Shown here: positions 21,484 through 45,949 of the stretch, one piece after another
How positions within the stretch are numbered: position 1 is the stretch's first letter
Layout of the letters: each line of letters begins with the position of its first letter
Virus record (IMG/VR): IMGVR_UViG_3300032224_001305
Span: 1 to 64,000 of that record
DNA: 64,000 bases
Direction: 5' to 3' (one strand)
Origin: a virus
Made by a program: the position numbers and the translations under genes
Notes under the pieces: generated by a model
Seen by the model: the letters and a program-made list of their open reading frames with translations, nothing else
The model's database searches: none
Told to the model about the DNA's origin: nothing

Positions 21484-21560
21484 TAACACAGCCTGTGAGT
21501 ACCTAGCACAGCTTCTGCGAGATAAACTCTAAAACGTCTTATTTGTGGGAGACACTAAAC

Positions 21561-24500
21561 ATGGCAACGTTAGAGAGACCCGGCGTAGAAGTTGAACAGG
21601 TTGTTGTAAACAACACACCTACCGTACTCGCAGCAGCGTTACCAGCGTGTGTCGTTGGTCCGTGCTACCAAATTGTCTCCCCCACGACGGCTGAAGGTGT
21701 GTTAGATAGCACGTCAGTCGTTATCACGCCGGCTCAAATAACGGGCGACGTTATTGCAGAGCCTATTGCCTGCAATGGCAAACAGCTCAAGGTCGTAGTC
21801 AACGGTGGAAATCCGCAGGTCATTATCCTGCCGACACCGCTGTCTGGTAACCCTCTGACCTTTACCACCATCGTTAGCAGCATCAATAAGCAGCTAGCTG
21901 GTGCTACGTCAGCGGTCGTTAACGACAAGCTCGTTATCACTACCCTCAACAAGGGTGATTCCTCCTCTCTGTTCTTAGCTGCTACTGACGGAACAAGCGC
22001 CTACGCGGATCTTGGTCTATCGTCAGTGGATCTCACAGAGTTCAAGGGCAAGTCCAAGTACGACAACACAACGTCGATCGTACAGTTCTCGTCTCTACCG
22101 GCTACTAAGACAGCCACAAGCAATCTGTCTTGGGATGCCAACAACATAGACTTGTACAACTACCGTGGAAGCGGCGAGCCGGTAAAGCTATCGGACGTCA
22201 GCGCTATCATCCACAACTCGTGGTCCAACGGCACCATCGACCGTATCTTCAATACCGATATTGACGACGGCGGCTTTGATGGTAACTACTTCCAGCCGAT
22301 CGTTTCTAAGCGTATAGGTCTGTATGGTAAGAACGTCGGTGGTGGTAAGACCAACACTGTGTTCCATCCAGGTACGCACGCATCGTTGACGCTTCCTCTA
22401 CGTAACAACGTGGGTAATGGCGGAACGTCTCCTGACACCACCGGCGGCAACTACCTATACGTAGAGGCGCTCGGTCTACAGGGATTTGTTTCCAACAAAG
22501 ACGCCGCGATCGGTAACTATGTAGGAAAGGCCGGTAACGAAGTGAGCGTAAAGATCACTTCAGGCGTAGCTACCGGCGTTGCATGGAATGCCGGTCTGAA
22601 GCAGTTGCAGATCACGCTACTGGATTCAGGTGCTGGTGCATCTTCTGTGACTTATGCGCAGCTAGAGACCGCGCTAAACACCATCACTGGTGGGTTCGAC
22701 GCAACCAAAGACTTGTCGATCTCGCTCAAGTACACAAACGGCGCTGCGGCCGTAACAGAAAACGATATCAGCGGTGCCAACGCGATCACATGCTACCTGA
22801 CCGGTGGCTCAGATCCGTTGAACTTCGCTGCTGCTGATAGCTCAGCTACTAAGAACTTGGTAGCCACAGTGACCGGCTCAGTAAAGGTCGGCTCGTTTAC
22901 TGGCGCTGACTTGGGCCTAACTGGCGAGTGGATTGACCTATCAATCAACGGCTCACCGGCCATTAGAACCACGTTTGCCAGCGGCACATCGGTTGTCACC
23001 ACGCTAAACACAACACTAGCCAGCTCCATATTGGGCGCTGCTGGTACTGTTACCGTAGATAACGTGGCCGTTAACGCTTACGCCAGAAGCGTAACCATAA
23101 CGTCGCAGTTCGGTGAGTCAGTAGCAGTACTACAGCTCCTAGCCAATCCGTCACCGACCAGTTCTTTCTACAAACAGTACCAAGATTCGACCATACAGGT
23201 TGTAGCTTACTCGAACACCAAGGTAGTGCAGAAGTTGTTCAGTGGTGTACGCGACAATTTCAAGAACGGCATATCTATCACTCCAGATAATAATGATGCC
23301 GGTACGGGTTCTTCTTTACACCACTCTTCGTACAACAGCATCGCAGGCCCTACCTCATTGGTAGGCTCAGTAATGGAGCGCGGTCTAGTGCCCGGTTCAC
23401 AGGCTCTTAGCCTTCTGAGCGTCAAAGCGCAGGCTGCCATAGTGTTTGCCCCAAACACCACCGCAGCCGTATGGACCGGTGCTGCCTTTAACGTCGTTCT
23501 AACCCATAGTGCTGTTGGCGGCGATACCACAATAACTACAGCGGGTGGTGCGGCAAACTACGCAGCAGCAGTCGGCCAGATACAAACTGCTCTTGCTGCC
23601 CTAGGTGGAGCGCACGCGGCTTCTATAGTTGTGGCGTCTAGAACTATCAATGGTGTCGCGTGCCTATGCTTCATCGACAAGACAGGCACAGGTACTTTGA
23701 AGGTAAAAGGTACAACTACAGCTGCAGTAAAGACCGCACTTACAAACACCGCTACTAACGGTGCTACTCTGTACGACGTGCCTTACTCGTCGGTGACTAC
23801 ATCGTTCACTCTAGCGGATTCCTCTGTGGGCGGATGGACGGTAACGGGCATCTCGTCGTCCATGTCACAGGTGAAGTTTGCCGACAACATCGGTTTTATT
23901 AATACAAATACAGCTCACCTGACTGAGTACTTCCTAGACTCGAGCGCTACCGTTACTTACACCAAGTACATGGGCGCCACTAACGGCGGTGATCTAAAGA
24001 CCACCTTCGTCAGAAGCGCAGGTAACGTGCCTCTGGCAGCGTTCTTCTCAGGATCGAGCGCCAACCTATCGTGGAAGCAGGGATGGGCTAGCTCGTTTGC
24101 GCAAGACAGCAAGGACTACACCGGACGTATCTTCACCGGTGGATCGGCTCTAGCAAAGGTTGGCGATTCACTGAACAACGCTGGCACGCCGTACGGTCGT
24201 ATCAGCGCGATACAGTCGCTGAACATAGCTGGCTATGCGGCTTTCTCAGGAGCGCAGTTGCTCCTGTCTGAGTCGTCAGTAGACACCTACGGAATACTGA
24301 CCGATTGGTACGTACGTGCCGAGGCATTAGATACTTACTCGCCTGCCAGAAACGTAGCGCCAGAAGTAGTCATAGACACCGCTACGCAGAACATCACTGT
24401 GAAGGCGGCGGTTAATCGCTCTTCGGCAGGAATTCCGTCAGCGGTGACGTCTACTCTGTACGCTGGTTACACGGCGCTACGCCTAGACGTAACTCCGGCT

Positions 24501-25907
24501 GCGGCGAACCCAAGTCTGATGTCGTTCCAAGACACGACAGAGGTAGAAACATTGATAGGACCGATCAGCCCAGCCAACCCGCTGGCGTTCGGTATAGCAA
24601 AAGCATTCGACAATGCGCCTACGGTACAGATTACCGGCATGGGCGTTGACGATGTCTCGGCAGATGCCCCGTACGGCACCGCCGAGGCCTACAGTAGAGC
24701 CTTCACAGAGCTAGAGCGCTACGAGGTCTATGCCATCGCTCCGATGACGTTCGACCGCGAAGTACACAAATTGCTAGCTCTACACTGCTCTACTATGTCT
24801 CTTCCCGGTGGAAAGAAGGAGCGCGCAGGCATCTGCTGCACTACTTTGCCCACAGAGAAAGAGTCGCTGCTATGTCTGAGCGGTACAATGACCGCTACAG
24901 AGGGAGCAGCTGGTAAGTGGACCCTCACTATAGAAGGTAAGAGCTTCGTAGACGCCCTAGACGGCAAGAAGGATGCAAACGGAAACACCATCTCGGCGTT
25001 CCCAGGCGCTACCTTCTCGGCGGCCAACGGTATCTACATCGATAGATCTGGCGATGCCTACAAGTATCTCGTAACTGAGATCTCCAGCACCACCGAGATT
25101 GTCATCGAAGTAGATTACGCGTTTGACGCTGGTGGCGGACCCGGATCAAATGGAAACGATGACGGATACTACAAAGAGGATGCCTCAGCGCTAGCGGAAT
25201 TCCCCGCTGCCGGTGAGAACTGCAGCTTGCTCGTACGTCAGGCTTCCATTGACGATACAACCACCACCGGTAAGAACCAGCAGGTTGAGGCAATCGCAGC
25301 GTTCGCTTCAGGCTTTGCCATGTCGCGCTTCACTGAGATTCAGCCTGCGTACTTCGGTACCCTTGTAAACGGTACTGAGACACTGGTTGAGGGCTTCTAC
25401 TTCTGCGCAGCATGGGCTGGAGCTTCGAGCCAGCAGAATCCTGCACAGGGCTTTACCAACTTCCCAATGGTAGGCTTCACACGTCCTATCGGCTCTAATG
25501 ACAAGTTCACGGAGACGCAGATGGCTACAGCCGCTGCCGGTGGCGTCAACTGGATAATCCAGGATTCCTCGGGTGGTCCGGTGTTCAGCCGTCATCAGCT
25601 GACAACCAACACCTCTTCTCTAAAGACTAGAGAGTGGTCAGTTGTCAAGGCGGTTGACTACGCAGCCAAGCTTCTCCGCGAATCGGTCAAGGGCTACATA
25701 GGACGATACAACATTACTAAGGCATTGCTGGAGGAGATCTCCATCACTTGCACTAGTGTGTGTTCAAGCTTAGGTGGTACGGTATTAGCGGAAATAAGTG
25801 TCACTGGCATCAAAGTTTCCGATACAGCGCCGGATCACGTCGAGCTAGACATTGTTGCGGTTCCGTTCTACCCAGCGAACAAGATAAAGATCCGCATCAC
25901 TGTTTAA
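21561..25907 (+). CDS. Tail sheath protein (unusually long)
   Basis: A 1448-aa protein. The start is set at ATG 21561 (GGAGAC ahead), not at a GTG 18 nt upstream. The N-terminus MATLERPGVEVEQVV matches the sheath signature [RP]PGV-x-[VI]-E. The last 350 residues (SFVDALDG... to the terminal DHVELDIVAVPFYPANKIKI segment) match the C-terminal sheath core. The family is usually about 400-700 aa, so about 700 residues of Thr/Ser/Ala/Gly-rich beta domains are inserted in the middle, probably exposed on the tail surface. It contracts to drive the tube through the envelope. Confidence 0.88.
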   Translation: MATLERPGVEVEQVVVNNTPTVLAAALPACVVGPCYQIVSPTTAEGVLDSTSVVITPAQITGDVIAEPIACNGKQLKVVVNGGNPQVIILPTPLSGNPLTFTTIVSSINKQLAGATSAVVNDKLVITTLNKGDSSSLFLAATDGTSAYADLGLSSVDLTEFKGKSKYDNTTSIVQFSSLPATKTATSNLSWDANNIDLYNYRGSGEPVKLSDVSAIIHNSWSNGTIDRIFNTDIDDGGFDGNYFQPIVSKRIGLYGKNVGGGKTNTVFHPGTHASLTLPLRNNVGNGGTSPDTTGGNYLYVEALGLQGFVSNKDAAIGNYVGKAGNEVSVKITSGVATGVAWNAGLKQLQITLLDSGAGASSVTYAQLETALNTITGGFDATKDLSISLKYTNGAAAVTENDISGANAITCYLTGGSDPLNFAAADSSATKNLVATVTGSVKVGSFTGADLGLTGEWIDLSINGSPAIRTTFASGTSVVTTLNTTLASSILGAAGTVTVDNVAVNAYARSVTITSQFGESVAVLQLLANPSPTSSFYKQYQDSTIQVVAYSNTKVVQKLFSGVRDNFKNGISITPDNNDAGTGSSLHHSSYNSIAGPTSLVGSVMERGLVPGSQALSLLSVKAQAAIVFAPNTTAAVWTGAAFNVVLTHSAVGGDTTITTAGGAANYAAAVGQIQTALAALGGAHAASIVVASRTINGVACLCFIDKTGTGTLKVKGTTTAAVKTALTNTATNGATLYDVPYSSVTTSFTLADSSVGGWTVTGISSSMSQVKFADNIGFINTNTAHLTEYFLDSSATVTYTKYMGATNGGDLKTTFVRSAGNVPLAAFFSGSSANLSWKQGWASSFAQDSKDYTGRIFTGGSALAKVGDSLNNAGTPYGRISAIQSLNIAGYAAFSGAQLLLSESSVDTYGILTDWYVRAEALDTYSPARNVAPEVVIDTATQNITVKAAVNRSSAGIPSAVTSTLYAGYTALRLDVTPAAANPSLMSFQDTTEVETLIGPISPANPLAFGIAKAFDNAPTVQITGMGVDDVSADAPYGTAEAYSRAFTELERYEVYAIAPMTFDREVHKLLALHCSTMSLPGGKKERAGICCTTLPTEKESLLCLSGTMTATEGAAGKWTLTIEGKSFVDALDGKKDANGNTISAFPGATFSAANGIYIDRSGDAYKYLVTEISSTTEIVIEVDYAFDAGGGPGSNGNDDGYYKEDASALAEFPAAGENCSLLVRQASIDDTTTTGKNQQVEAIAAFASGFAMSRFTEIQPAYFGTLVNGTETLVEGFYFCAAWAGASSQQNPAQGFTNFPMVGFTRPIGSNDKFTETQMATAAAGGVNWIIQDSSGGPVFSRHQLTTNTSSLKTREWSVVKAVDYAAKLLRESVKGYIGRYNITKALLEEISITCTSVCSSLGGTVLAEISVTGIKVSDTAPDHVELDIVAVPFYPANKIKIRITV

Positions 25908-30915: not shown

Positions 30916-32525
30916 CCGAGGATACTCCCCTTAATAAAGCGCTTCTTTACTGACGATTCACTGGTCGACGCCAACTGCTGTTTGGACGCAGGTATGGCAC
31001 GTGTCTTTGACCACTCTCTCAGCGACTCTATCTCTACTTGCATAGTAGATGATAAAGGCACCATTGATGATATGGCAGAGATCCAGCTAGTCGTAGTGAC
31101 ATCAGTCTTAGCAGAGAACGCGTTATACATAGCACTTACAAAAGACGTATCTATCTCAGCGCCTGAGTAACCAGAGGCTGCTGTAGATATTGTGTCCCAG
31201 TCAAAGCTGGCATCAGCTCTACCGTACTTTGCCGCTACAATCTTTGCGATCTCCATTCTCTCTTTATCGTTTGGAAGATCAACAAAGAACATCGCATCAA
31301 AGCGACCAGCGCGTAGCATCTCTGGCGGCAGAGAACTAACGTCATTAGCGGTAGCTACCACAAACACCGGAGAGGTCTTATCAGACATCCAAGTGAGGAA
31401 GTTGCCGAACACACGGCTGGATGTGCCTCCGTCGTTGCCTCCTGACTTGCCCATGCCCTTTTCCATCTCATCGATGAACAGCACGCACGGTGCAACAGCC
31501 TCAGCAGTCTTTAGTGCGCGTCTCATACGAGACTCGCTTTCGCCAACCAAAGAACCAAACAGTGAGCCGATGTCCATGCGTAGCACAGGCATGTTCCACT
31601 CTTTGCCGATTGTTTTAGCGACCAGAGACTTACCGCAACCAGGAACACCCATCATTAGCAACGCACGCGGAGGCGGCAACCCAAAGTTCTTTGCCTCTTC
31701 AGAGAACGCGTCTGTTCTCTCACGAAGCCATCCCTTCAGATTATCCAGACCGCCTACTACGTGTAAGTCATGCTCTGCGGAGTAATACTCCAACACACCA
31801 GACTTTCTGATGATGGACTTCTTCTCCGACAACAGCATCTGCGTATCTACTTTGCCAGTAGCCACGATAGACATTGCCAACGCTGACGAAACTTCCTGTA
31901 AGGTTAGTCCCACAGTAGTTCTCGCTACAAGCGTAGATAGTTTAGCTATCTCCTTCTCACTGTTCTTATCAGCGAGTAAGTCTTTCAGCGTGTAGTAACA
32001 CTCATGCGCGATCTGCTCTTCTGTAGGAAGATCAAAATCTATCAGCGTTAATACTTTTTCCATACGTGGTGGAATATCCGACTCCGAGTCCACAATGATT
32101 ACTGAAGTAGAATCTCTACGTTCCATCAGTAATTGAGAGCGCAACTCCTTGAGCAGTCTTCCTATTGCGAAGCCACCGCCGCCACCTAAGAAAAAGCCAT
32201 AATCTTTCAACACCATCAAAACGTCTTTAGCACCGTTGGCAGACGCAGACTCTGTCGTAGCGGTCATTAGGTACTTTATGGGTGCTGTAGGATCACCAGC
32301 GTGTTCAGTAAGAACCGTACCCACTTTGTGTGGAGACGTTGATGCAGCGTACTTACAAGCTGTACCAACGCCATATGTCCATACGAGCAGAGCACTATAT
32401 TTATTGTTCTTTGCGATTTCGATTAGATCGTCAACAACCCGGTGCTCCTCGTGAGTTACTACGAAGAGCACCGGATCGCTGGCGCCCAATCTACGCTTAA
32501 TCTGCGTGATTGAATTGTCTGACAT
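30912..32525 (-). CDS. Ycf46-type AAA+ ATPase
   Basis: A 537-aa protein. The N-terminal 240 residues match the Ycf46 layout: LFVVTHEEHRVVDDLIEIA, then a YSALLVWTYGVG segment and a degenerate ATPase-like fold. The C-terminal AAA domain has Walker A GVPGCGKS (293-300), Walker B VLFIDEMEK (D352, E353) and an LRAGRFDAMFFVDLP arginine-finger region. Its start overlaps the ParB stop (TAATG on the reverse strand). It probably remodels protein complexes; substrates are unknown. Confidence 0.8.
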   Translation of the reverse strand: MSDNSITQIKRRLGASDPVLFVVTHEEHRVVDDLIEIAKNNKYSALLVWTYGVGTACKYAASTSPHKVGTVLTEHAGDPTAPIKYLMTATTESASANGAKDVLMVLKDYGFFLGGGGGFAIGRLLKELRSQLLMERRDSTSVIIVDSESDIPPRMEKVLTLIDFDLPTEEQIAHECYYTLKDLLADKNSEKEIAKLSTLVARTTVGLTLQEVSSALAMSIVATGKVDTQMLLSEKKSIIRKSGVLEYYSAEHDLHVVGGLDNLKGWLRERTDAFSEEAKNFGLPPPRALLMMGVPGCGKSLVAKTIGKEWNMPVLRMDIGSLFGSLVGESESRMRRALKTAEAVAPCVLFIDEMEKGMGKSGGNDGGTSSRVFGNFLTWMSDKTSPVFVVATANDVSSLPPEMLRAGRFDAMFFVDLPNDKERMEIAKIVAAKYGRADASFDWDTISTAASGYSGAEIDTSFVSAMYNAFSAKTDVTTTSWISAISSMVPLSSTMQVEIESLREWSKTRAIPASKQQLASTSESSVKKRFIKGSILG

Positions 32526-33724
32526 TACTTAGGCAACTTCTTACCGGCGGAGGTGACGATGCGACGAACCGGCGTCTTAACCACTTCCTCTTCTTCCTCA
32601 GTGTCGTCGCCCAAGTCTTTCTTGGCACGCTTAGCCACCTCGGCTTTCTTCTGAGCCGCCTTCTCTGCGGCCTCCTCCACCTTGCGCTGCTTCTCTGCTT
32701 GCTTGGTGGCTTTCTCTGCCTCTTTCTTCCGAGACGCCTCAGCCTTAGCCGTTTGCTTCTCAGCGTCCTTCTTTTCCTTTTGCGCAACCTTAAGCGCCAG
32801 CTTCTCGTTCTCGCGCTCCACCTTCTCTTCCTCGGAGAGCTTAGGACGACCAGCGCTACGCGGCTTAGCTACCTCTACTTCCTCGTCCTCTACGCTCAAC
32901 TTGTAGTCATTGTCCAGTTCAACGCGCTCCAGTACTTCCTCGTCCGAAAGCTCCAACAGGAACCAACGGATCAGCGTCAGCAATGAATCGCGGTGCGACT
33001 CTTCGATGTCTAGCTCGTCATCGGTGACCAGCGCTTTACGAAGCAGCATGATGTCTGTCTTCGTGCGGTTGGTCGCTTCTTTCTTCTTGGTGTCTTTCTT
33101 CTCGGTCTCGCCGCGACCAAGCATCTTGTTGAGAGCTGCCACCTGTGCGTCTACGTTGGGTACACCCTTCTTAGACAACACCGCCAACTCACGCGCCTGC
33201 TTCAGAGTGATTAGCTCTTTACGCAGCGCATCCTTAGCCTGCGGACAAAGCTGACGGTGCAGCGCCAAGTGGCCGCTGACCCATGACTGGCTCTTACCTA
33301 GAACCTGACCCACCTTCTCCTGATTACCGATGCGCTCCATCAAGCGACCTACCGCGTCAGCGGCATCCGCAGGATTGAGATCCTCACGTTGTACGTTCTC
33401 TGCGACGTTCATCGTGAGTGCGCCGTCTAGGTCACCCTGGTAGACGGTACAATTGATCTCCTGATACATCTCGTCAAAACCGTCGACCTCGTCAATCAGC
33501 TCTTTGATTGCGTGTAGACGACGATGACCAGCGATGAGCAAGAAAAGCTCTTTACCCTCTGCGTCCTCCGTCTGCCAAACCATCGGAGCAGTCAGCAGGC
33601 CGTTAACCTCGATGCTCTTCTTGATCTCCGTCAGATCTCCGACGCTGGTACGACAATTAGTAAAACCGGGATACTCGGTTTTGATTTCGCTCAATGGTAT
33701 TGAAAGGTGCGAGTACTGCTCCAT
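32525..33724 (-). CDS. ParB-like DNA-binding protein with long coiled C-terminus
   Basis: A 399-aa protein. ATG 33724 has GAGGAG ahead; an in-frame ATG 15 nt upstream lacks a site. The ParB/Spo0J N-domain is clear: LLIAGHRRLHAIKEL (box II) and NVAENVQREDLNPADAA (box III), followed by a helix-turn-helix (KVGQVLGKSQSWVSGHLALH). The last 130 residues are a Lys/Glu/Ala coiled coil unlike chromosomal ParB. No ParA is in the window. Together with the E1 and JAMM genes upstream it recalls PRTRC cassettes. A candidate target is the palindrome cluster at 34690-35001. Confidence 0.82.
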   Translation of the reverse strand: MEQYSHLSIPLSEIKTEYPGFTNCRTSVGDLTEIKKSIEVNGLLTAPMVWQTEDAEGKELFLLIAGHRRLHAIKELIDEVDGFDEMYQEINCTVYQGDLDGALTMNVAENVQREDLNPADAADAVGRLMERIGNQEKVGQVLGKSQSWVSGHLALHRQLCPQAKDALRKELITLKQARELAVLSKKGVPNVDAQVAALNKMLGRGETEKKDTKKKEATNRTKTDIMLLRKALVTDDELDIEESHRDSLLTLIRWFLLELSDEEVLERVELDNDYKLSVEDEEVEVAKPRSAGRPKLSEEEKVERENEKLALKVAQKEKKDAEKQTAKAEASRKKEAEKATKQAEKQRKVEEAAEKAAQKKAEVAKRAKKDLGDDTEEEEEVVKTPVRRIVTSAGKKLPK

Positions 33725-33821
33725 AACGTAACTCCTCAAGTTGTTTTGAATTTCTTGCGCTGAACGGGTGGTAGCCAGGGTTTCTCAGCGCGCCTTGTTT
33801 TACTCTTCTAGTAATCTACCG

Positions 33822-36134: not shown

Positions 36135-36830
36135 TTAAGCAACTGACTTCTTAACTTCAGACGTGCGCATGAACTTCTTTCCAGACATCTTCATGGCAGC
36201 TACCTCGCCCATGGTGAGGTGATTCGTCACCGCAATGCTTGAGGAGAACTGGTCCCACTCGCCTTCCACGATAGTAGCAAAGGATGGCGGAACGCGACCA
36301 GCCAGAAGTTTTCCGAAGAATGGCAGGGCCACGAGCTTGTGGTGCATCAGGATACCCACAAGCTCACTCTCCATGCCGAGCAGCTCGTACATCGCCATAT
36401 CTTCTTCGGTAGTCTCCCCGGTCACCACCGAGAAGCCGCGGTTGTGCAGCCAAGTGCTGAGGTCTACACCCAGCTCTTCCAGGTCAGCCTCTCGCTGCTC
36501 CACAGTGTAGAACGCCGTGACATGGTGCATGAACGCCTTCTGAAGCATCTGACGACTAATGTCATACTGCTCCTTGGTTCGAACAGCTCCACGCTTAGGA
36601 TTACCGCCATCTACGATGAAGTTAAGTGCGGGACCGTACGGAATACTACCGTTGGCACCGATGACCAAAGACACCTTACAGAAATCATCAGACTCGGTCG
36701 AGAAGGGGCGACCGATCCAAGCGAGCTCATCGCCAATCCTGGTTTGCACCAAGATCGTCTTGGTTCCATTGAACTCGATAGTGAAGCGGACAGGCGACGA
36801 TTCCGTCGCCAAGAAGTAAGGTGTACGCAT
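36135..36830 (-). CDS. Unknown protein next to the E1-like gene
   Basis: A 231-aa alpha/beta protein with a CGAGGT site. It starts with a beta-rich region (VRFTIEFNGTKTILVQT) and has helices in the second half. No family is recognised. Its constant neighbours here (E1 upstream, 26-nt gap) make it a likely component of the conjugation system, perhaps equivalent to one of the PRTRC proteins of unknown role. Confidence 0.65.
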   Translation of the reverse strand: MRTPYFLATESSPVRFTIEFNGTKTILVQTRIGDELAWIGRPFSTESDDFCKVSLVIGANGSIPYGPALNFIVDGGNPKRGAVRTKEQYDISRQMLQKAFMHHVTAFYTVEQREADLEELGVDLSTWLHNRGFSVVTGETTEEDMAMYELLGMESELVGILMHHKLVALPFFGKLLAGRVPPSFATIVEGEWDQFSSSIAVTNHLTMGEVAAMKMSGKKFMRTSEVKKSVA

Positions 36831-36856: not shown

Positions 36857-37522
36857 TTAACGTGCTTGAGGAAGCACGGTGAAATTACGAAAATCCACAG
36901 CTACCTGATGTGGATATTTCTCACTGATAATCCAGCTCACCAACGCTGAGCACATGAGACTTGCAATCCCATAAGCGCAGAAGATCGTTGAGCGAGCCGT
37001 GCACGGTTCTGTAAACGCTTCAGCGTCACTGTGTAGTGATCCCAGATAGTTTGCCACTGAGTCTTTGTCTTCCTTATCGACAAAGAACACCTTGCCAAAT
37101 CTAGAACCCATACGACCGTCGAGATAGATCTTAGTCGACGGATCGTTTAGGAAGTTGGTGAACACAAGCTGACGTGCAGCCATGCTGTCCAAGGCGGACA
37201 CAACCAACTCTGTTCCAAACGCCCCGCCTTCATAGAACTGATCGTGCGGTACAATGGTGACGCCAGTTCCTACTTCTAGGCGTTCCTTTAGAGCATCCAC
37301 TTTCTTCTTACCAAGGTCATTCAAGTAGTAACCCTGGTTAGCAATATTATGGGACTCAACGGTATCAGCATCCCAGACGTGCATTACTCCTATACCAGTT
37401 TTTGCTAGCACTTCTGCAACGTGGGAGCCGATAGAACCGACACCAACGACAGTTGTTGTCATACCTGATACCTCTTGAGGGATCAGTGTAGATTGGCGTG
37501 TGAAATCTAGCTTGACAGCCAT
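36857..37522 (-). CDS. E1-like (ThiF/MoeB-family) adenylyltransferase
   Basis: A 221-aa minimal E1. The nucleotide loop is GVGSIG (residues 27-32) in TTTVVGVGSIGSHVAEVLA. WDADTVESHNIANQGYY supplies the acidic residue and N-x-x-x-Q of the adenylation site, followed by K-x-D-A-L. SALDSMAARQ fits the D-x-x-x-x-R box. Cys174 in TEPCTARS is the candidate thioester Cys. It would adenylate the C-terminal Gly of the Ubl at 39499 and pass it to the E2. ATG 37522 overlaps the JAMM gene; a TTG 12 nt upstream is also possible. Confidence 0.85.
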   Translation of the reverse strand: MAVKLDFTRQSTLIPQEVSGMTTTVVGVGSIGSHVAEVLAKTGIGVMHVWDADTVESHNIANQGYYLNDLGKKKVDALKERLEVGTGVTIVPHDQFYEGGAFGTELVVSALDSMAARQLVFTNFLNDPSTKIYLDGRMGSRFGKVFFVDKEDKDSVANYLGSLHSDAEAFTEPCTARSTIFCAYGIASLMCSALVSWIISEKYPHQVAVDFRNFTVLPQAR

Positions 37523-38379
37523 TTGCGTGTCCAATATCCGATATTATCTCGGATCGTTTCGGGTTTCTTCTCAACGTTTATAACGGTGCTTTCCGTCTTT
37601 ACCTGTCTTTCCTCTATTTTTTTAGCCTTTGCCGGCTCCTCTATAAATCTCACCGGAGGCACGTTCCTAGTGCCCTGCCATCCCCACCAGGCAGGAAAGT
37701 CATCGTCGTCATCATGTAGTTTAGTCTTTACCGGCAGGTTGGTCTGAACTCCAGCCTGCCACGTTCTAGTGACCGGAGCAGTAAAGGACTGTTTCTGTAC
37801 GGTGACCACGTTGTGCATACGCTCAACTTTAGCCAGTGACTCTTCTATCCACTTATTAGTAACGGTGCCCTGATACAACACACCGTACGAGCAGTTGACT
37901 ACGGTATTTCTGTACACGCTGTTGTTGTTACCGTGGCTGTTGGGATCATACGTATCTAGACGCAAGTACAGATTATTGCCAGGATCTTTACCAGCTAGCG
38001 CGGCTGCAGCACCACTTTTATTAGTGATAATACTCCACATAAAGGCGCCGTTAGCCAGACGATCGATAGTAGCTTCGTCTGTGCCAGAGGGACTAGCTGT
38101 CATGTTCACGTGGCTGTGGAAGAACACACGCAGTCTAGAAGTATCAGCGCCCTGATTGATCAACTCTAGCTGCAGCAAAGACAGAGACTGGTCGTCCATC
38201 TCAGTGTACACACCAGAGCACTTTTGCTTTGGTACATAAAACTCTTGAACGACATCGTCTCTGCCAGGCAGCAGCAAGCCGAGAGCAGAGATCTCGATAT
38301 CGCATGCCTCGGTAAGACGCCACATCTGTATCCACGCCTTGGGCGTGAACAGAAGCTTCTTCGTTTGCACTACACTCAT
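37507..38379 (-). CDS. JAMM/MPN (JAB) metalloprotease
   Basis: A 290-aa protein. Glu29 (CDIEISALG) and the motif H88-S-H90-x7-S98-x2-D101 in FFHSHVNMTASPSGTD are a complete JAMM zinc site. These enzymes remove ubiquitin-like proteins from targets or trim Ubl precursors. About 130 C-terminal residues beyond the JAMM domain are not recognised. It overlaps the E2 gene by 4 nt (ATGA) and the E1 gene by 16 nt, a tight operon. Confidence 0.88.
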   Translation of the reverse strand: MSVVQTKKLLFTPKAWIQMWRLTEACDIEISALGLLLPGRDDVVQEFYVPKQKCSGVYTEMDDQSLSLLQLELINQGADTSRLRVFFHSHVNMTASPSGTDEATIDRLANGAFMWSIITNKSGAAAALAGKDPGNNLYLRLDTYDPNSHGNNNSVYRNTVVNCSYGVLYQGTVTNKWIEESLAKVERMHNVVTVQKQSFTAPVTRTWQAGVQTNLPVKTKLHDDDDDFPAWWGWQGTRNVPPVRFIEEPAKAKKIEERQVKTESTVINVEKKPETIRDNIGYWTRKWLSS

Positions 38380-39410
38380 GATACCGTCCTAGGTACGCAG
38401 CCAGAGTTGTTTAGGCCGCTGTTTGTTTCTAGAGATACTAGCGAGAACATATGTAGCTTTGCGCAACAAGTGGGACATGAGCCACAATGTGACACTGCCG
38501 TTTCCTGAAAGCAGTTAGCGCAGAAAATACTCTCGTGTACATGCTCACAACCCTGAGCGGCCGGAGCTACGCCAAGATCGTTGCAGTGTGGACACACGAT
38601 CCTACCCCAAGGACCTTTGGGATCCCTATCTATGAGATTGGTATACGCGCTCGCTGGATTAGCAAACAACAGACAACCGCTTAGAAGTGCCAGCGCGTTG
38701 GCCACGTTTCCATGTAGTAAAGAGTCTGAGATACGTATAGCCTCGTCACCCGTACACACACTGTTGTTGTAGTTTATGTGCGGGTGGTCGCGAAACGTCG
38801 TAACAACATCGTTACTATCTTTAGCAGTGACCTGTAGATTAGCGCCGTATCTCTGTACATCCCAGCCAAGTTTTACTAGGTACGAACCATACTTTTCGTG
38901 CGATTTGAGACCGGTACCTCGCTGAATAATACGGAATACCTTTGTGCGAAACTCTACGTTGATTCTGGGGGGTTCAGTACCACTCTGAGTAGAGACAGTA
39001 ACCGTAGGCACATCAACGGTACTGAGTAGCTCTGAGGCGTTGTCATAGTCAAACGTATCGCACAGATCTTTGTAGCTCTCAAACAGCGCTTTATTTTTAA
39101 TGATATACTGAATAGCTTTTATAGTGCTTTGGTGACGGTCATTAAGCTCATCAGACTTGCGTTCGGCGTAGTAAACTTCGTCAGCAAGTGCTTGTTCCTT
39201 TGTTGTGATTAGTCGAAGCTTTTCTTTAAGCTTTTCCTTCTCTTCTTTTATAGCGTCTATAAACGCCTGCTTCTTCTCTTTAACCTCCTTGAGTTCGGCG
39301 TCAGCAGTGTCGACAAGCTTCTTAGTCTGCTCCGCCTCTACCCGTTTTGACTCTATGGTACTGTCATCTACTTTGAAACAGCCCATCAAACGCGTTTTCA
39401 GTTCTGACAT
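38376..39410 (-). CDS. E2-like conjugating enzyme fused to a RING-like zinc domain
   Basis: A 344-aa protein in three parts. Residues 20-110 form a coiled coil. Residues about 130-260 contain H209-P-H-I-N-x-N-x-S-V-C219, exactly the spacing of the HPN...C active site of ubiquitin E2 enzymes. Residues 270-320 have C273-x2-C276-x11-C288-x3-H292-x4-C297-x2-C300-x11-C312-P-T-C315, close to a C3HC4 RING finger including its CPxC end. The fusion would join conjugation and ligase-like functions. It follows the Ubl gene after a terminator-like hairpin. Confidence 0.8.
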   Translation of the reverse strand: MSELKTRLMGCFKVDDSTIESKRVEAEQTKKLVDTADAELKEVKEKKQAFIDAIKEEKEKLKEKLRLITTKEQALADEVYYAERKSDELNDRHQSTIKAIQYIIKNKALFESYKDLCDTFDYDNASELLSTVDVPTVTVSTQSGTEPPRINVEFRTKVFRIIQRGTGLKSHEKYGSYLVKLGWDVQRYGANLQVTAKDSNDVVTTFRDHPHINYNNSVCTGDEAIRISDSLLHGNVANALALLSGCLLFANPASAYTNLIDRDPKGPWGRIVCPHCNDLGVAPAAQGCEHVHESIFCANCFQETAVSHCGSCPTCCAKLHMFSLVSLETNSGLNNSGCVPRTVS

Positions 39411-39498: not shown

Positions 39499-39909
39499 TT
39501 AGCCAGCGTTGACGTTGACCTGCACCATGATGGTGTGATTGCCTGCGGGCACCGGGTCGTTAGCCGACAGCGGGACGAGCTGGCTGTCACGAACGTAAGC
39601 ATAGCTAGCGGTGCTGGTATTCCAGCCAGCCGAAGCCACGATGTCCTTGATAGGCGTACCAGGGACGAAGTTCACCGGAACCGCGTCCTTACCCAAGCTA
39701 CCCTTGAGAAGGACGGTGTTACCGCCCTGAGCCTCAGCCAGCTTCTCGTTGTACGCCGCCTTGGCGCGCGTCATCTTAGCCGCAGCGGCAGTCAACTCAT
39801 CCATGTTCTCGGTCGAGAACTCTTCTTCGAATGCCGCCTTGGCATCTTCGTACGCGTTGGTGGCTTCGTCCAGAATGCGCTGCAGATCATCAATCGAGAG
39901 TGCGCCCAT
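39499..39909 (-). CDS. Ubiquitin-like beta-grasp modifier with helical N-terminus
   Basis: A 136-aa protein. Residues 5-60 are a helical hairpin (acidic). Residues 64-136 show the beta-grasp order: NTVLLKGSLG, PVNFVPGTPIKDIVASAG (strand 2 and helix), SYAYVRDSQLVPLSAND, and PAGNHTIMVQVNVNAG. It ends in a single Gly, as required for E1 activation without trimming. The family closest in pattern is ThiS/PRTRC-C/bacterial Ubl. Strong GGAGAA site. Encoded first in the conjugation cassette. Confidence 0.75.
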   Translation of the reverse strand: MGALSIDDLQRILDEATNAYEDAKAAFEEEFSTENMDELTAAAAKMTRAKAAYNEKLAEAQGGNTVLLKGSLGKDAVPVNFVPGTPIKDIVASAGWNTSTASYAYVRDSQLVPLSANDPVPAGNHTIMVQVNVNAG

Positions 39910-40446: not shown

Positions 40447-40770
<324 letters not shown>

Positions 40771-42412: not shown

Positions 42413-42497
42413 TGGTGCGAGAAGCGGGACTTGAACCCGCACGCCAAAAAGCGAAAGATTTTAAGTCTCTTGCGTCTACCGATTCCGCCATTCTCGC
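42413..42497 (-). tRNA. tRNA-Leu(UAA)
   Basis: Class II tRNA with a long variable arm. The acceptor GCGAGAA pairs with its 3' strand; anticodon TAA sits in loop CTTAAAA; CCA is encoded. Confidence 0.95.
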
Positions 42498-42523
42498 GAA
42501 GCATAACGACTAACCATATACAG

Positions 42524-42596
<73 letters not shown>

Positions 42597-42636
42597 TTAG
42601 CTGGTAACGCGTACGCTACCAGAGTTTTATAAAATA

Positions 42637-43233
42637 TCAACACTGCGTAGATAGTTCTGCAAATCTATCGTTGTAGTAATTCTTTAACGTTCCACGCAAG
42701 TAAGGAAAGTCTCCTAAGAGCGCTGGCAAGTGCGTACGTAGTTTCGCCCGATCGTTGAACTTACCGATGTTAGTAGGATCAACTAAGTACGGCACCTTAT
42801 TCCTATCAGCGTAGTCTCGTATAGAAGACCTATTAGTGTTTAGCATAGGTCTAAACACTTTTCCGTTTACTACTGGCGTATAGGAGGGATTACCCTTAAA
42901 CGCCGTTATTAAATACCACTCTATTGCGTCATCCAATGTGTGTCCAGTAACTACCTGTGCTTCAGACATCTGGTAATACTGGCTACGCATATCGTGCCAC
43001 TCTGCCTCTGTACCATATGGTAGCTTAGTAACACAGAGCGGTAATTCGTGGTCAGAACAGTAGTCTTCCACTAGACACCGACTTAGCTTTGAGAAGTCCG
43101 ACTCACCGTGCTGAAAATGTAGTACAGTTATATCTTTCCTACCCACTCTACAGAAATGGAGTAGCGCCATAGAATCTGGACCACCAGAGCATGCAACTAC
43201 AACGCGCCTATCAATATTAGGGCTGAATAACAT
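42637..43233 (-). CDS. tilS: tRNA(Ile)-lysidine synthase, minimal
   Basis: A 198-aa PP-loop ATPase. VVVACSGGPDSMALLHF is the SGGxDS loop (residues 16-21). Then come HFQHGESDFS, RSQYYQ, VTGHTLDDAIEWYL and RPMLNTNRSSIRDYA, the usual order for TilS N-domains. It lacks the C-terminal domains of the larger TilS type. It modifies C34 of CAU-anticodon tRNA-Ile to lysidine so that it reads AUA. ATG 43233 with AGGAG is the start; a longer frame would run into the tRNA-Arg. Confidence 0.82.
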   Translation of the reverse strand: MLFSPNIDRRVVVACSGGPDSMALLHFCRVGRKDITVLHFQHGESDFSKLSRCLVEDYCSDHELPLCVTKLPYGTEAEWHDMRSQYYQMSEAQVVTGHTLDDAIEWYLITAFKGNPSYTPVVNGKVFRPMLNTNRSSIRDYADRNKVPYLVDPTNIGKFNDRAKLRTHLPALLGDFPYLRGTLKNYYNDRFAELSTQC

Positions 43234-43252
43234 TTGCACTCCTATAACATAA

Positions 43253-43329
<77 letters not shown>

Positions 43330-43342
43330 ACTGAAAACAATT

Positions 43343-43419
43343 TGGTCGGAGTGAAGGGATTCGAACCCATGACCCTCTGCTCCCAAAGCAGATGCGCTAC
43401 CAGACTGCGCTACACTCCG
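43343..43419 (-). tRNA. tRNA-Pro(UGG)
   Basis: Acceptor CGGAGTG, anticodon TGG in loop TTTGGGA, CCA encoded. Confidence 0.95.
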
Positions 43420-43565
43420 AAAGGCTCCTGCACAATTAAGCATCGTGCTAACGCGTGGAGTACACGACGATCTTACTTCTGTCGCTGGACTAGGCCATAC
43501 GGCGCCCGATGGGGGACGAGAGAAGAGATAGATCGCGACCCGGAGGTGAACACCCCATCTCCAGG

Positions 43566-43648
43566 TGGAAGGTGGTAGATTCGAACTACCGTAGGCTGAC
43601 GCCGGCAGATTTACAGTCTGCTCCAATTGGCCACTCTGGCAACCTTCC
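43566..43648 (-). tRNA. tRNA-Tyr(GUA)
   Basis: Class II tRNA, acceptor GGAAGGT, anticodon GTA in loop CTGTAAA, long variable arm. The 3' end is ACCT, so CCA is not fully encoded. The 146 nt between this tRNA and tRNA-Pro hold no gene I recognise. Confidence 0.93.
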
Positions 43649-43681
43649 ATTGGGGTGCGCTCGCAGGATGATCCTAGACCG

Positions 43682-44245
43682 CTAACTTAACTGCTGATCT
43701 ACGCAATGCTCGACAGACATAAAGTCCGTATGTGCTTTGCATCTAGGCTCGTACCCTTCTTTACCTCCGACCTTAACTTCTTCCTGCTTCTCCACCAAAG
43801 TAATTGTGTAGTAGGCGTCGTTTCCGCAGAAGCAAACCGCGGGACAAAGCTCAATCTTTGTTGCCCACGGCAGTATCTTTGCCATCTCTGGAAAGGCGCT
43901 ACCTTCTGACGAGAGCTGCAAGGAGGAGACGTATATTTGCTTTCCTTGTTTGTATAACTCAACCAGAACGTCTGACACCCCCGGTATCATAAAGGCTTCG
44001 TCAACCGCTATTACCTCTGCTTTACCTAGATGGTCAAAGATCTCTCTACCCTCGCTGATAGGAATAGACTCCCAGCGGTTTCCGTTATGAGAAACAACAG
44101 CCTTCGTTGCATACCTAGTATCAATGCTCGGCTTGAACAGTTTAATTACCTTCTTCTGGTATTTTGCTCTTTCCAGCTGCGAAAGCATTCTTGACGTTTT
44201 ACCGCCGAACATTGGGCCGGTGAAGACTACAAACTCTTGTTTCAT
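43682..44245 (-). CDS. tdk: Thymidine kinase (type II)
   Basis: A 187-aa enzyme. The P-loop is GPMFGGKT (residues 10-17), followed by IAVDEAFMI as the Walker B/DEAQF-like box and a C-terminal zinc site (CPAVCFCGN with a later RCKAH). It makes dTMP from thymidine for phage DNA synthesis. It is embedded between tRNAs and probably co-transcribed with them. Confidence 0.92.
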   Translation of the reverse strand: MKQEFVVFTGPMFGGKTSRMLSQLERAKYQKKVIKLFKPSIDTRYATKAVVSHNGNRWESIPISEGREIFDHLGKAEVIAVDEAFMIPGVSDVLVELYKQGKQIYVSSLQLSSEGSAFPEMAKILPWATKIELCPAVCFCGNDAYYTITLVEKQEEVKVGGKEGYEPRCKAHTDFMSVEHCVDQQLS

Positions 44246-44264
44246 TTTTATACTCTAGTTGTAG

Positions 44265-44337
44265 TGCGCTCGGAGGGAATCGAACCCTCGACCAACAGAT
44301 TAAAAGTCTGCTGCTCTACCGACTGAGCTACAAGCGC
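44265..44337 (-). tRNA. tRNA-Lys(UUU)
   Basis: Acceptor GCGCTTG (one G-U pair), anticodon TTT in loop CTTTTAA. CCA is not encoded. Confidence 0.95.
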
Positions 44338-44342
44338 AGCCG

Positions 44343-44456
44343 CTATTTATTCTTAAGATACATCCCGATTAAATCTATTATGATTGATACACCGAAGCCA
44401 AACGCGGCTCCCCATACAAATCCCTCTATACCAGAAGCGCTAGCTAGATAATCCAA
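44343..44456 (-). CDS. Possible 37-aa membrane peptide between tRNAs
   Basis: A short frame from TTG at 44456 with a strong AGGAGG 4 nt upstream. The product (LDYLASASGIEGFVWGAAFG...) has one hydrophobic helix and ends MYLKNK. A longer frame would start inside tRNA-Gly and is rejected. Function unknown. Confidence 0.45.
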   Translation of the reverse strand: MDYLASASGIEGFVWGAAFGFGVSIIIDLIGMYLKNK

Positions 44457-44484
44457 GCTACCTCCTACTAGATTAGTATCACTG

Positions 44485-44559
44485 TGGAGCGGGCGATGGG
44501 ATTCGAACCCACGACGTTCAGCTTGGAAGGCTGACACTCTACCGCTGAGTTACACCCGC
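44485..44559 (-). tRNA. tRNA-Gly(UCC)
   Basis: Acceptor GCGGGTG, anticodon TCC in loop CTTCCAA, CCA encoded. Confidence 0.95.
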
Positions 44560-44575
44560 GTCCCCATTATAGATG

Positions 44576-44664
44576 TGGCGGAGGGAGAGGGATTCGAACC
44601 CCCGGACGCTTTTAACGTCGACGGTTTTCAAGACCGCTCCATTAAACCACTCTGGCATCCCTCC
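44576..44664 (-). tRNA. tRNA-Ser(UGA)
   Basis: Class II tRNA, acceptor GGAGGGA, anticodon TGA in loop CTTGAAA, long variable arm, CCA encoded. Confidence 0.95.
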
Positions 44665-44720
44665 GGCTAGTACCGCCCGTGAGGACGGCACCGTTACACC
44701 TTGTACACGTGGTACATGTG

Positions 44721-45101
44721 CTATTTCTGAAACTGCTCAGGATCGTCCGCATCGGTGTCTACCTGTAGCATAGACGCGACCAACTGACATATTTTCATTT
44801 TAGTGTAGTGGGTTTGGTTAGACAACGGACACTTACTCAAGAAGTAGCTTGTGTGTAGAAAGCCTGATGCAGGTGCTTCGAACACGTAAGATTCTCCTAA
44901 CGTTCGTCCTAAGACGTAAACCGAGTTATCGTCCGGAGCAATACACGCTATGGCCTTGTATCTAGTTCCGTCGCCTGGTTGCCATTCCACCACAACCACG
45001 TTTTCTTTAATGCAAACTTTATTCGTTCCCGGCCTGCTATATGGACTGTACGCAGCATCTAACCTGCTACTCACGTTGTCGGCATATGTCGAATCAAACA
45101 T
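44721..45101 (-). CDS. Hypothetical protein within the tRNA array
   Basis: A 126-aa protein with GAGGTAGCC ahead of the ATG. The middle is beta-rich (VCIKENVVVVEWQPGDGTRY). No family is recognised. Confidence 0.6.
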   Translation of the reverse strand: MFDSTYADNVSSRLDAAYSPYSRPGTNKVCIKENVVVVEWQPGDGTRYKAIACIAPDDNSVYVLGRTLGESYVFEAPASGFLHTSYFLSKCPLSNQTHYTKMKICQLVASMLQVDTDADDPEQFQK

Positions 45102-45116
45102 GGCTACCTCAAATAA

Positions 45117-45383
45117 TTAGGTCCAATCTCTAACCACTAGAAATACACCAGTGGCTACCGTGTAACCGACGCCCTCCATTAGAGCTATCTTTACTCGATC
45201 TTGTGCACTACGTGCTTCTACTATCAATATCGTAGGAACCATAGCTATAAGCGGGTAAGTAAAGCTAATGGCCAATCCAAGGGTGTACACCTTGTTATTG
45301 GCCGCGTACGCTGCTACGTCGAACCACATCTGCAGTAGGAACGCAGCTAAAAAAGCGGCAACGTATTTAGCTTTATTACTCAT
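45117..45383 (-). CDS. Small membrane protein within the tRNA array
   Basis: An 88-aa protein with two or three membrane helices (YVAAFLAAFLLQMWFDVAAY, LGLAISFTYPLIAMVPTILI, VGYTVATGVFLVV). ATG 45383 has AGGAA ahead; a longer frame enters tRNA-Ala and is rejected. Three-helix phage membrane proteins may be holins, but nothing here proves it. Confidence 0.6.
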   Translation of the reverse strand: MSNKAKYVAAFLAAFLLQMWFDVAAYAANNKVYTLGLAISFTYPLIAMVPTILIVEARSAQDRVKIALMEGVGYTVATGVFLVVRDWT

Positions 45384-45404
45384 ATTAAATTCCTGGTTAT
45401 TTGG

Positions 45405-45480
45405 TGGTGGACTCAAGGGGGATCGAACCCCTGACCCTCGGCTTGCAAAGCCGATGCTCTCCCAGCTGAGCTATGAGCCC
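45405..45480 (-). tRNA. tRNA-Ala(UGC)
   Basis: Acceptor GGGCTCA, anticodon TGC in loop TTTGCAA, CCA encoded. Confidence 0.95.
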
Positions 45481-45575
45481 TTGGTAAAAAGCGCGTGATA
45501 GCCAATATCATGGCGATATACAGAGACACTCGCTCTGCATATCGGCCACTCGGCGTGGACTTTGACTATACGCGC

Positions 45576-45650
45576 TGGTGGATGCTGAGGGATTCGAACC
45601 CCCGACTGCCTCCGTGTAAAGGAGGAACTCTACCGCTGAGTTAAGCATCC
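45576..45650 (-). tRNA. tRNA-Val(UAC)
   Basis: Acceptor GGATGCT, anticodon TAC in loop TTTACAC, CCA encoded. Confidence 0.93.
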
Positions 45651-45776
45651 TTAAGGAAAGTACCTGAGCGCCTTTATAGGTAGCGCTTTCCTGCTGCAAC
45701 AGGCATGCGTTTTACCAGTGAGCACTTGCAGGTGCTTACTCGATCTGTCGCATCTTTCTAAATCAGGTACTCCCGG

Positions 45777-45850
45777 TGGGCCCTCTGGGATTTGAACCCA
45801 GTACCCGCAGTTTATGAGACTGCTGCTCTAACCGATTGAGCTAAGGGCCC
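45777..45850 (-). tRNA. tRNA with CAU anticodon, probably tRNA-Ile2 (lysidine type)
   Basis: Acceptor GGGCCCT, anticodon CAT in loop CTCATAA, T-loop TTCAAAT. Not an initiator, since the first pair is G-C. The acceptor and T-arm are closer to bacterial tRNA-Ile2 (GG-CCCT, TTCAA) than to elongator tRNA-Met, and tilS lies in the same array. CCA is not encoded. Elongator Met remains possible. Confidence 0.85.
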
Positions 45851-45867
45851 GTTCACCTAACTGACAG

Positions 45868-45949
45868 TGCGTGTAGAGGGACTCGAACCCCCACGTCTCT
45901 CAACAACAGAACCTAAATCTGCCGCGTCTACCAATTCCGCCATACACGC
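45868..45949 (-). tRNA. tRNA-Leu(UAG)
   Basis: Class II tRNA, acceptor GCGTGTA, anticodon TAG in loop TTTAGGT, long variable arm. CCA is not encoded. First tRNA of the array in the direction of transcription. Confidence 0.93.

Follow-up and report, generated by a model that had tools for sequence, protein, structure and literature searches.

Does a single gene of a contractile-tailed phage encode a ubiquitin-type E2 conjugating enzyme that carries its own RING-like domain, and if so, in what pathway might such a protein function? The question was raised by a 64,000-nucleotide stretch (hereafter the window) of the 101,375-base virus record IMGVR_UViG_3300032224_001305, which also includes genes for the large terminase, head protease, tail sheath and helicase. 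The original prediction, made from the sequence alone, was that an open reading frame at 38376-39410 combines an E2-like active site of eukaryote-like spacing with a C3HC4 RING-like series of cysteines and histidines. We confirmed that this frame is open and begins with ATG on the minus strand (39410-38376), encoding a protein of 344 aa (p344). The predicted active-site motif HPHINYNNSVCTG occupies residues 209-221 (38748-38786), with the predicted catalytic Cys219 at 38754-38756. The distance of 10 residues from H209 to C219 equals that of eukaryotic E2s (HPNINSNGSIC), with the one correction that the motif is HPH and not HPN. The Cys/His series at residues 273-315 (38466-38594) was also correctly identified and has the form C273-x2-C276-x11-C288-x3-H292-x4-C297-x2-C300-x11-C312-x2-C315, with H290 as an alternative ligand; the gap of 4 between ligands 4 and 5 is longer than the usual 2-3.

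To determine whether these patterns might be a mere coincidence of Cys and His residues in an unrelated coiled-coil protein, we scanned all 368 window ORFs of at least 40 aa and found that p344 is the only one with either the E2-type motif or the RING-type pattern. The latter arose in 0 of 20,000 shuffles of the whole protein and in 8 of 20,000 shuffles of its Cys-rich tail alone, and Cys constitutes 4.1% of p344 against 1.1% over the genes of the window. The coincidence explanation is favored only by the absence of any significant single-sequence database hit for p344, and in light of the genomic context and profile searches described below we reject it as very improbable.

Reading downstream on the minus strand, the gene neighborhood of p344 comprises first a 136-aa Ubl candidate (39499-39909) with a helical N-terminus followed by a small beta-grasp-like C-terminal domain ending in VQVNVNAG. 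This protein had no HMM or PDB hit on its own, and its identification rests on its position directly upstream of the E2-like gene, as in most cassettes of related phages. p344 is followed by a 290-aa JAB/JAMM metalloprotease (37507-38379, minus strand) with an E..HSHVN...SGTD motif, in which the glutamate (in IEISALG), the HxH and the aspartate are aligned in relatives; its match to PF14464 (E=1e-4, 22.5 bits) falls just under the cut-off of 25. Next is a 225-aa ThiF/E1-like adenylating enzyme (36857-37534, minus strand) with the motifs GVGSIG, DADTVESHNIANQ and EPCTARS, the last of which contains a candidate catalytic Cys; the CTA/CSA motif is shared by most relatives aligned. It matches PF00899 with 64 bits and retrieves MccB, UBA5, NEDD8 E1, Cap2 and MoeB from the PDB. 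p344 and JAB overlap by 4 bases and JAB and E1 by 28, as translationally linked genes do. Downstream lie two proteins without family hits, the first of which, p231 (36135-36830, minus strand), had no counterpart by eye in the cassettes inspected, and a ParB-like protein (32525-33739, minus strand). An Asp-rich low-complexity ORF (40447-40770, minus strand) lies just upstream of the cassette.

Single-protein searches with p344, E1 or JAB in viral contigs, and with p344 in phage and plasmid records, found no p344 relatives, although the E1 recovered 72 phage records. We searched viral contigs with a DNA pattern for HPH[IV]N....[IV]C.G, which gave five loci, and with a wider pattern, which gave thirty; all encode E2-like ORFs, most with a charged helical stretch before the motif. 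Setting aside two duplicates, 28 distinct viral loci remain (individual loci are given L numbers below). In 25 of these a JAB lies next to the E2 and in 21 an E1 is found, with most of the rest being short loci that end too soon. The gene order is E2-JAB-E1, except in L022, where it is E2-E1-JAB. A small Ubl-like ORF lies just upstream in most, ending in GG, GA or AG with or without a short tail (e.g. KGGR, EGGSK, VKGA, VVGG and VKAG). Several loci (L027, L029, L033 and L037) have two or three tandem E2-like genes in one cassette, and in L037 the JAB match lies in a 1333-aa ORF. Cultured phages have comparable cassettes: Xanthomonas phage PhiXhv-12 encodes a Ubl ending in GG, an 892-aa protein with a coiled coil, HPH...CLG and a Cys-rich tail, and a ThiF protein, and comparable genes are seen in crAss001 (gp79-gp76) and Flavobacterium phage Fpv3. 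The E2-like proteins of these three phages are more divergent and did not pass the family HMM. In L003 (1205-6427) and L004 (1559-6661), crAss001 gp79-gp75 and Fpv3 display a syntenic set comprising a Ubl-like protein, a protein with an MHSH...C.G motif, JAB, ThiF and an unknown protein, of which the second may be a divergent E2.

We next asked if the similarity to E2 enzymes extends beyond the motif. The family profile, searched against all PDB sequences, retrieved ubiquitin E2s at the top, with a best E=0.0038 for the first alignment and E=0.00037 over 82 columns for a trimmed one. This match includes the LLxxxNPxSP element after the active site (LLxxPNPxxP in the UBC core), which was not in the search pattern. 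UQ_con is the commonest Pfam match (5 of 29 members, best E 0.001); there is no match to the Prok-E2 families, and no specific model for this family in Pfam, NCBIfam or PHROGs. p344, with its E2-like core at residues 149-263 (38622-38966, minus strand), scored 40.3 bits on an E2-family HMM built without it, whereas one thousand copies with the motif kept and both flanks shuffled had a mean of 16.0, s.d. 2.6 and a maximum of 25.3. Thus, the similarity is not the motif alone, although the motif carries most of it: with the 13-residue motif masked p344 falls to 4.3 bits, and split HMMs of the parts before and after the motif did not detect p344 on their own. It should be noted that HPH and C.G are invariant among the relatives because the search pattern required them, though p344 and PhiXhv-12 were not found that way. 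Further, the segment after C219, CTGDEAIRISDSLL, lacks the Trp given as a conserved E2 element (PMC4630614). AlphaFold models with 29 and 24 aligned sequences gave a confident N-terminal helix, an E2-like order of strands and helices at intermediate confidence and a poorly predicted tail (block pLDDT about 40-66), and Foldseek searches with them found no significant match, with E2 and UEV structures appearing low in the lists. These models were too uncertain to confirm either fold; the assignment of p344 as an E2 is supported by sequence profiles and gene context. The long N-terminal helix or coiled coil spans residues 16-105 (39096-39365, minus strand), with block pLDDT of 90 or more over residues 21-90; a charged helix-rich stretch also precedes the E2-like region in most relatives.

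The RING-like assignment of the tail is supported more weakly. A search with the tail alone (70 residues around 273-315) retrieved 26 PDB chains, most of them RING E3 ligases (TRIM21, RNF4, RING2, TRIM31 and BRE1), with a best E=0.014, which is suggestive but not significant; no Pfam RING model matched p344. Cys-rich tails follow the E2 in 17 of the 28 viral relatives (18 of 30 family members, p344 included). While the original prediction held that an E2 joined to its own ligase-like domain in one phage protein would be unusual, an E2 plus zinc tail is in fact a common architecture of this phage family. L007 has the same C3HC4 order with similar spacing, but its tail had no RING hit in the PDB; the top two hits of the L033 tail are TRIM32, albeit weakly (E=0.02). 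Most relatives' tails are other Cys clusters, often tandem CxxC-x4-CxxC, rather than clear C3HC4 RINGs. A tree of the E1s places the window nearest to L028, which also has a Cys-rich tail, but most branches are weak and the zinc tail needs about six changes. So the fusion is recurrent in phages, while its RING nature is established only by spacing and weak similarity. An alternative is that p344 is an active E2 whose tail is a structural or substrate-binding zinc module (zinc ribbon, LIM-, PHD- or B-box-like), with the E2 working without an E3, as some E2s do. The variability of the tails, their lack of RING spacing in many relatives and their absence in 11 of 28 viral relatives, most of which still have JAB and E1, favor this. 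However, p344's own tail has C3HC4 spacing and retrieves mostly RING E3s, and we consider this alternative less likely.

Taken together, these observations suggest that p344 is probably the E2 of a phage-encoded reversible ubiquitin-like conjugation system. In this proposal, in which catalysis is itself inferred, the E1 adenylates the C-terminal Gly of the Ubl and passes it to Cys219 of p344. The RING-like tail is inferred to act as a built-in E3-like module that holds or activates the E2~Ubl thioester, in cis or across a dimer made by the coiled coil, which may alternatively bind a partner, and the Ubl then goes to a protein amine. The JAB protease is predicted to trim Ubl precursors where needed and to remove the Ubl. 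The E3 role of the tail, the acceptor and the purpose of the system are likewise inferences, and tagging of host or phage proteins during infection is a guess. We also considered the possibility that the cassette is a sulfur-carrier pathway of the ThiS/MoaD type, as the Ubls are small, of ThiS/MoaD size, and the E1 hits ThiF/MoeB models. This appears highly unlikely, as an E2-like enzyme with a conserved Cys and a JAB protease are present throughout, and no rhodanese, ThiG, MoaE or tRNA-thiolation gene was noticed in the cassettes inspected.

Operons combining Ubl, E1, E2 and JAB in a mobile-element context have been known in prokaryotes since 2006 (Iyer, Burroughs and Aravind 2006, PMC1779556). 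However, the type 6d E2s described therein lack the conserved His of classical E2s, whereas p344 has H209 in its HPH, and a coiled coil and zinc tail in addition. The window also shows weak affinities with the PRTRC system, in that its E1 and the downstream ParB-like protein hit PRTRC models (TIGR03734 and TIGR03736 appear here), but both score far under the cut-offs (44.2 against 144.75 bits for ThiF and 52.8 against 278.6 bits for ParB), and p344, JAB and the Ubl hit no PRTRC model; we hence reject membership in that system. The cascade of Ca. Caldiarchaeum subterraneum, which has been reconstituted in vitro, comprises Ub, E1, E2, a RING-type small zinc protein (srfp) and the JAMM protease Rpn11 (PMC5654768). 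It is encoded by a cellular archaeal operon in which the RING protein is a separate gene, whereas here the zinc module is fused to the E2 and the E1 is a minimal ThiF-like protein. BilABCD likewise has a Ubl, E1, E2 and JAB (PMC11354881), and Ubl-type conjugation chemistry is shared with type II CBASS (Cap2/Cap3), but those are bacterial anti-phage defence systems while the present cassette is in phages. Although the window E1 has Cap2 and PADLOC E1-E2 hits over its Rossmann region, E2 and E1 are separate genes here, unlike in Cap2, and p344 hits no E1-E2 model in PADLOC, on account of which we reject CBASS membership. HPH in place of HPN has been described as unique to the Ube2w family of eukaryotic E2s (PMC4630614), and UBE2W is among the PDB hits of the family profile. 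As UBE2W modifies protein N-termini (PMC9527308), a non-lysine acceptor is possible for the phage enzyme, which differs from UBE2W in its additional zinc tail and coiled coil.

What appears to be new is a distinct E2 family, concentrated in phages and without a specific model, in a standard four-gene phage cassette and often with a fused zinc tail. The overview of jumbo phage biology by Iyer et al. 2021 (PMC7824862) mentions no such phage system in its main text, though an earlier mention cannot be excluded, as our comparison did not extend to works such as that of Burroughs et al. 2011 on prokaryotic RING fingers. Given that Ubl conjugation in prokaryotes is now known as a bacterial weapon against phages (Bil, CBASS), phages with a whole E1-E2-Ubl-JAB set of their own, and E2s fused to zinc modules, would turn this around and offer a tractable four-gene system for asking how E2-E3 coupling arises. 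It is quite possible, though less likely than not, that a wide range of phages carries such a complete, self-contained and reversible system, with an E2 often fused to its own RING-like E3 module, and uses it to tag host or phage proteins during infection. With respect to distribution, a CWG form of the pattern, which is seen in 13 of 29 sequences (28 viral plus the one mentioned next), hit a single place in 257 billion bases of bacterial and archaeal genomes, suggesting, without proving, that the family is concentrated in phages. This place is an Uhrbacteria contig (L040: 706-2478, minus strand) with two tandem coiled-coil E2-like genes, one with HPHV...CWG and one in which the Cys is lost (HPCVSENGFLMLG), next to two AAA+ ATPase genes and with no JAB or E1 within the 8 kb seen.

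Elsewhere in the window, a 1454-aa ORF (21543-25907, plus strand) shows tail-sheath similarity only in its last 180 residues, its long N-terminal part being unexplained. The window also contains a cluster of 12 tRNA genes (42413-45949), which is interleaved with a PP-loop ATPase-like ORF with an SGGPDS motif (42637-43287) and a thymidine-kinase-like ORF (43682-44245).
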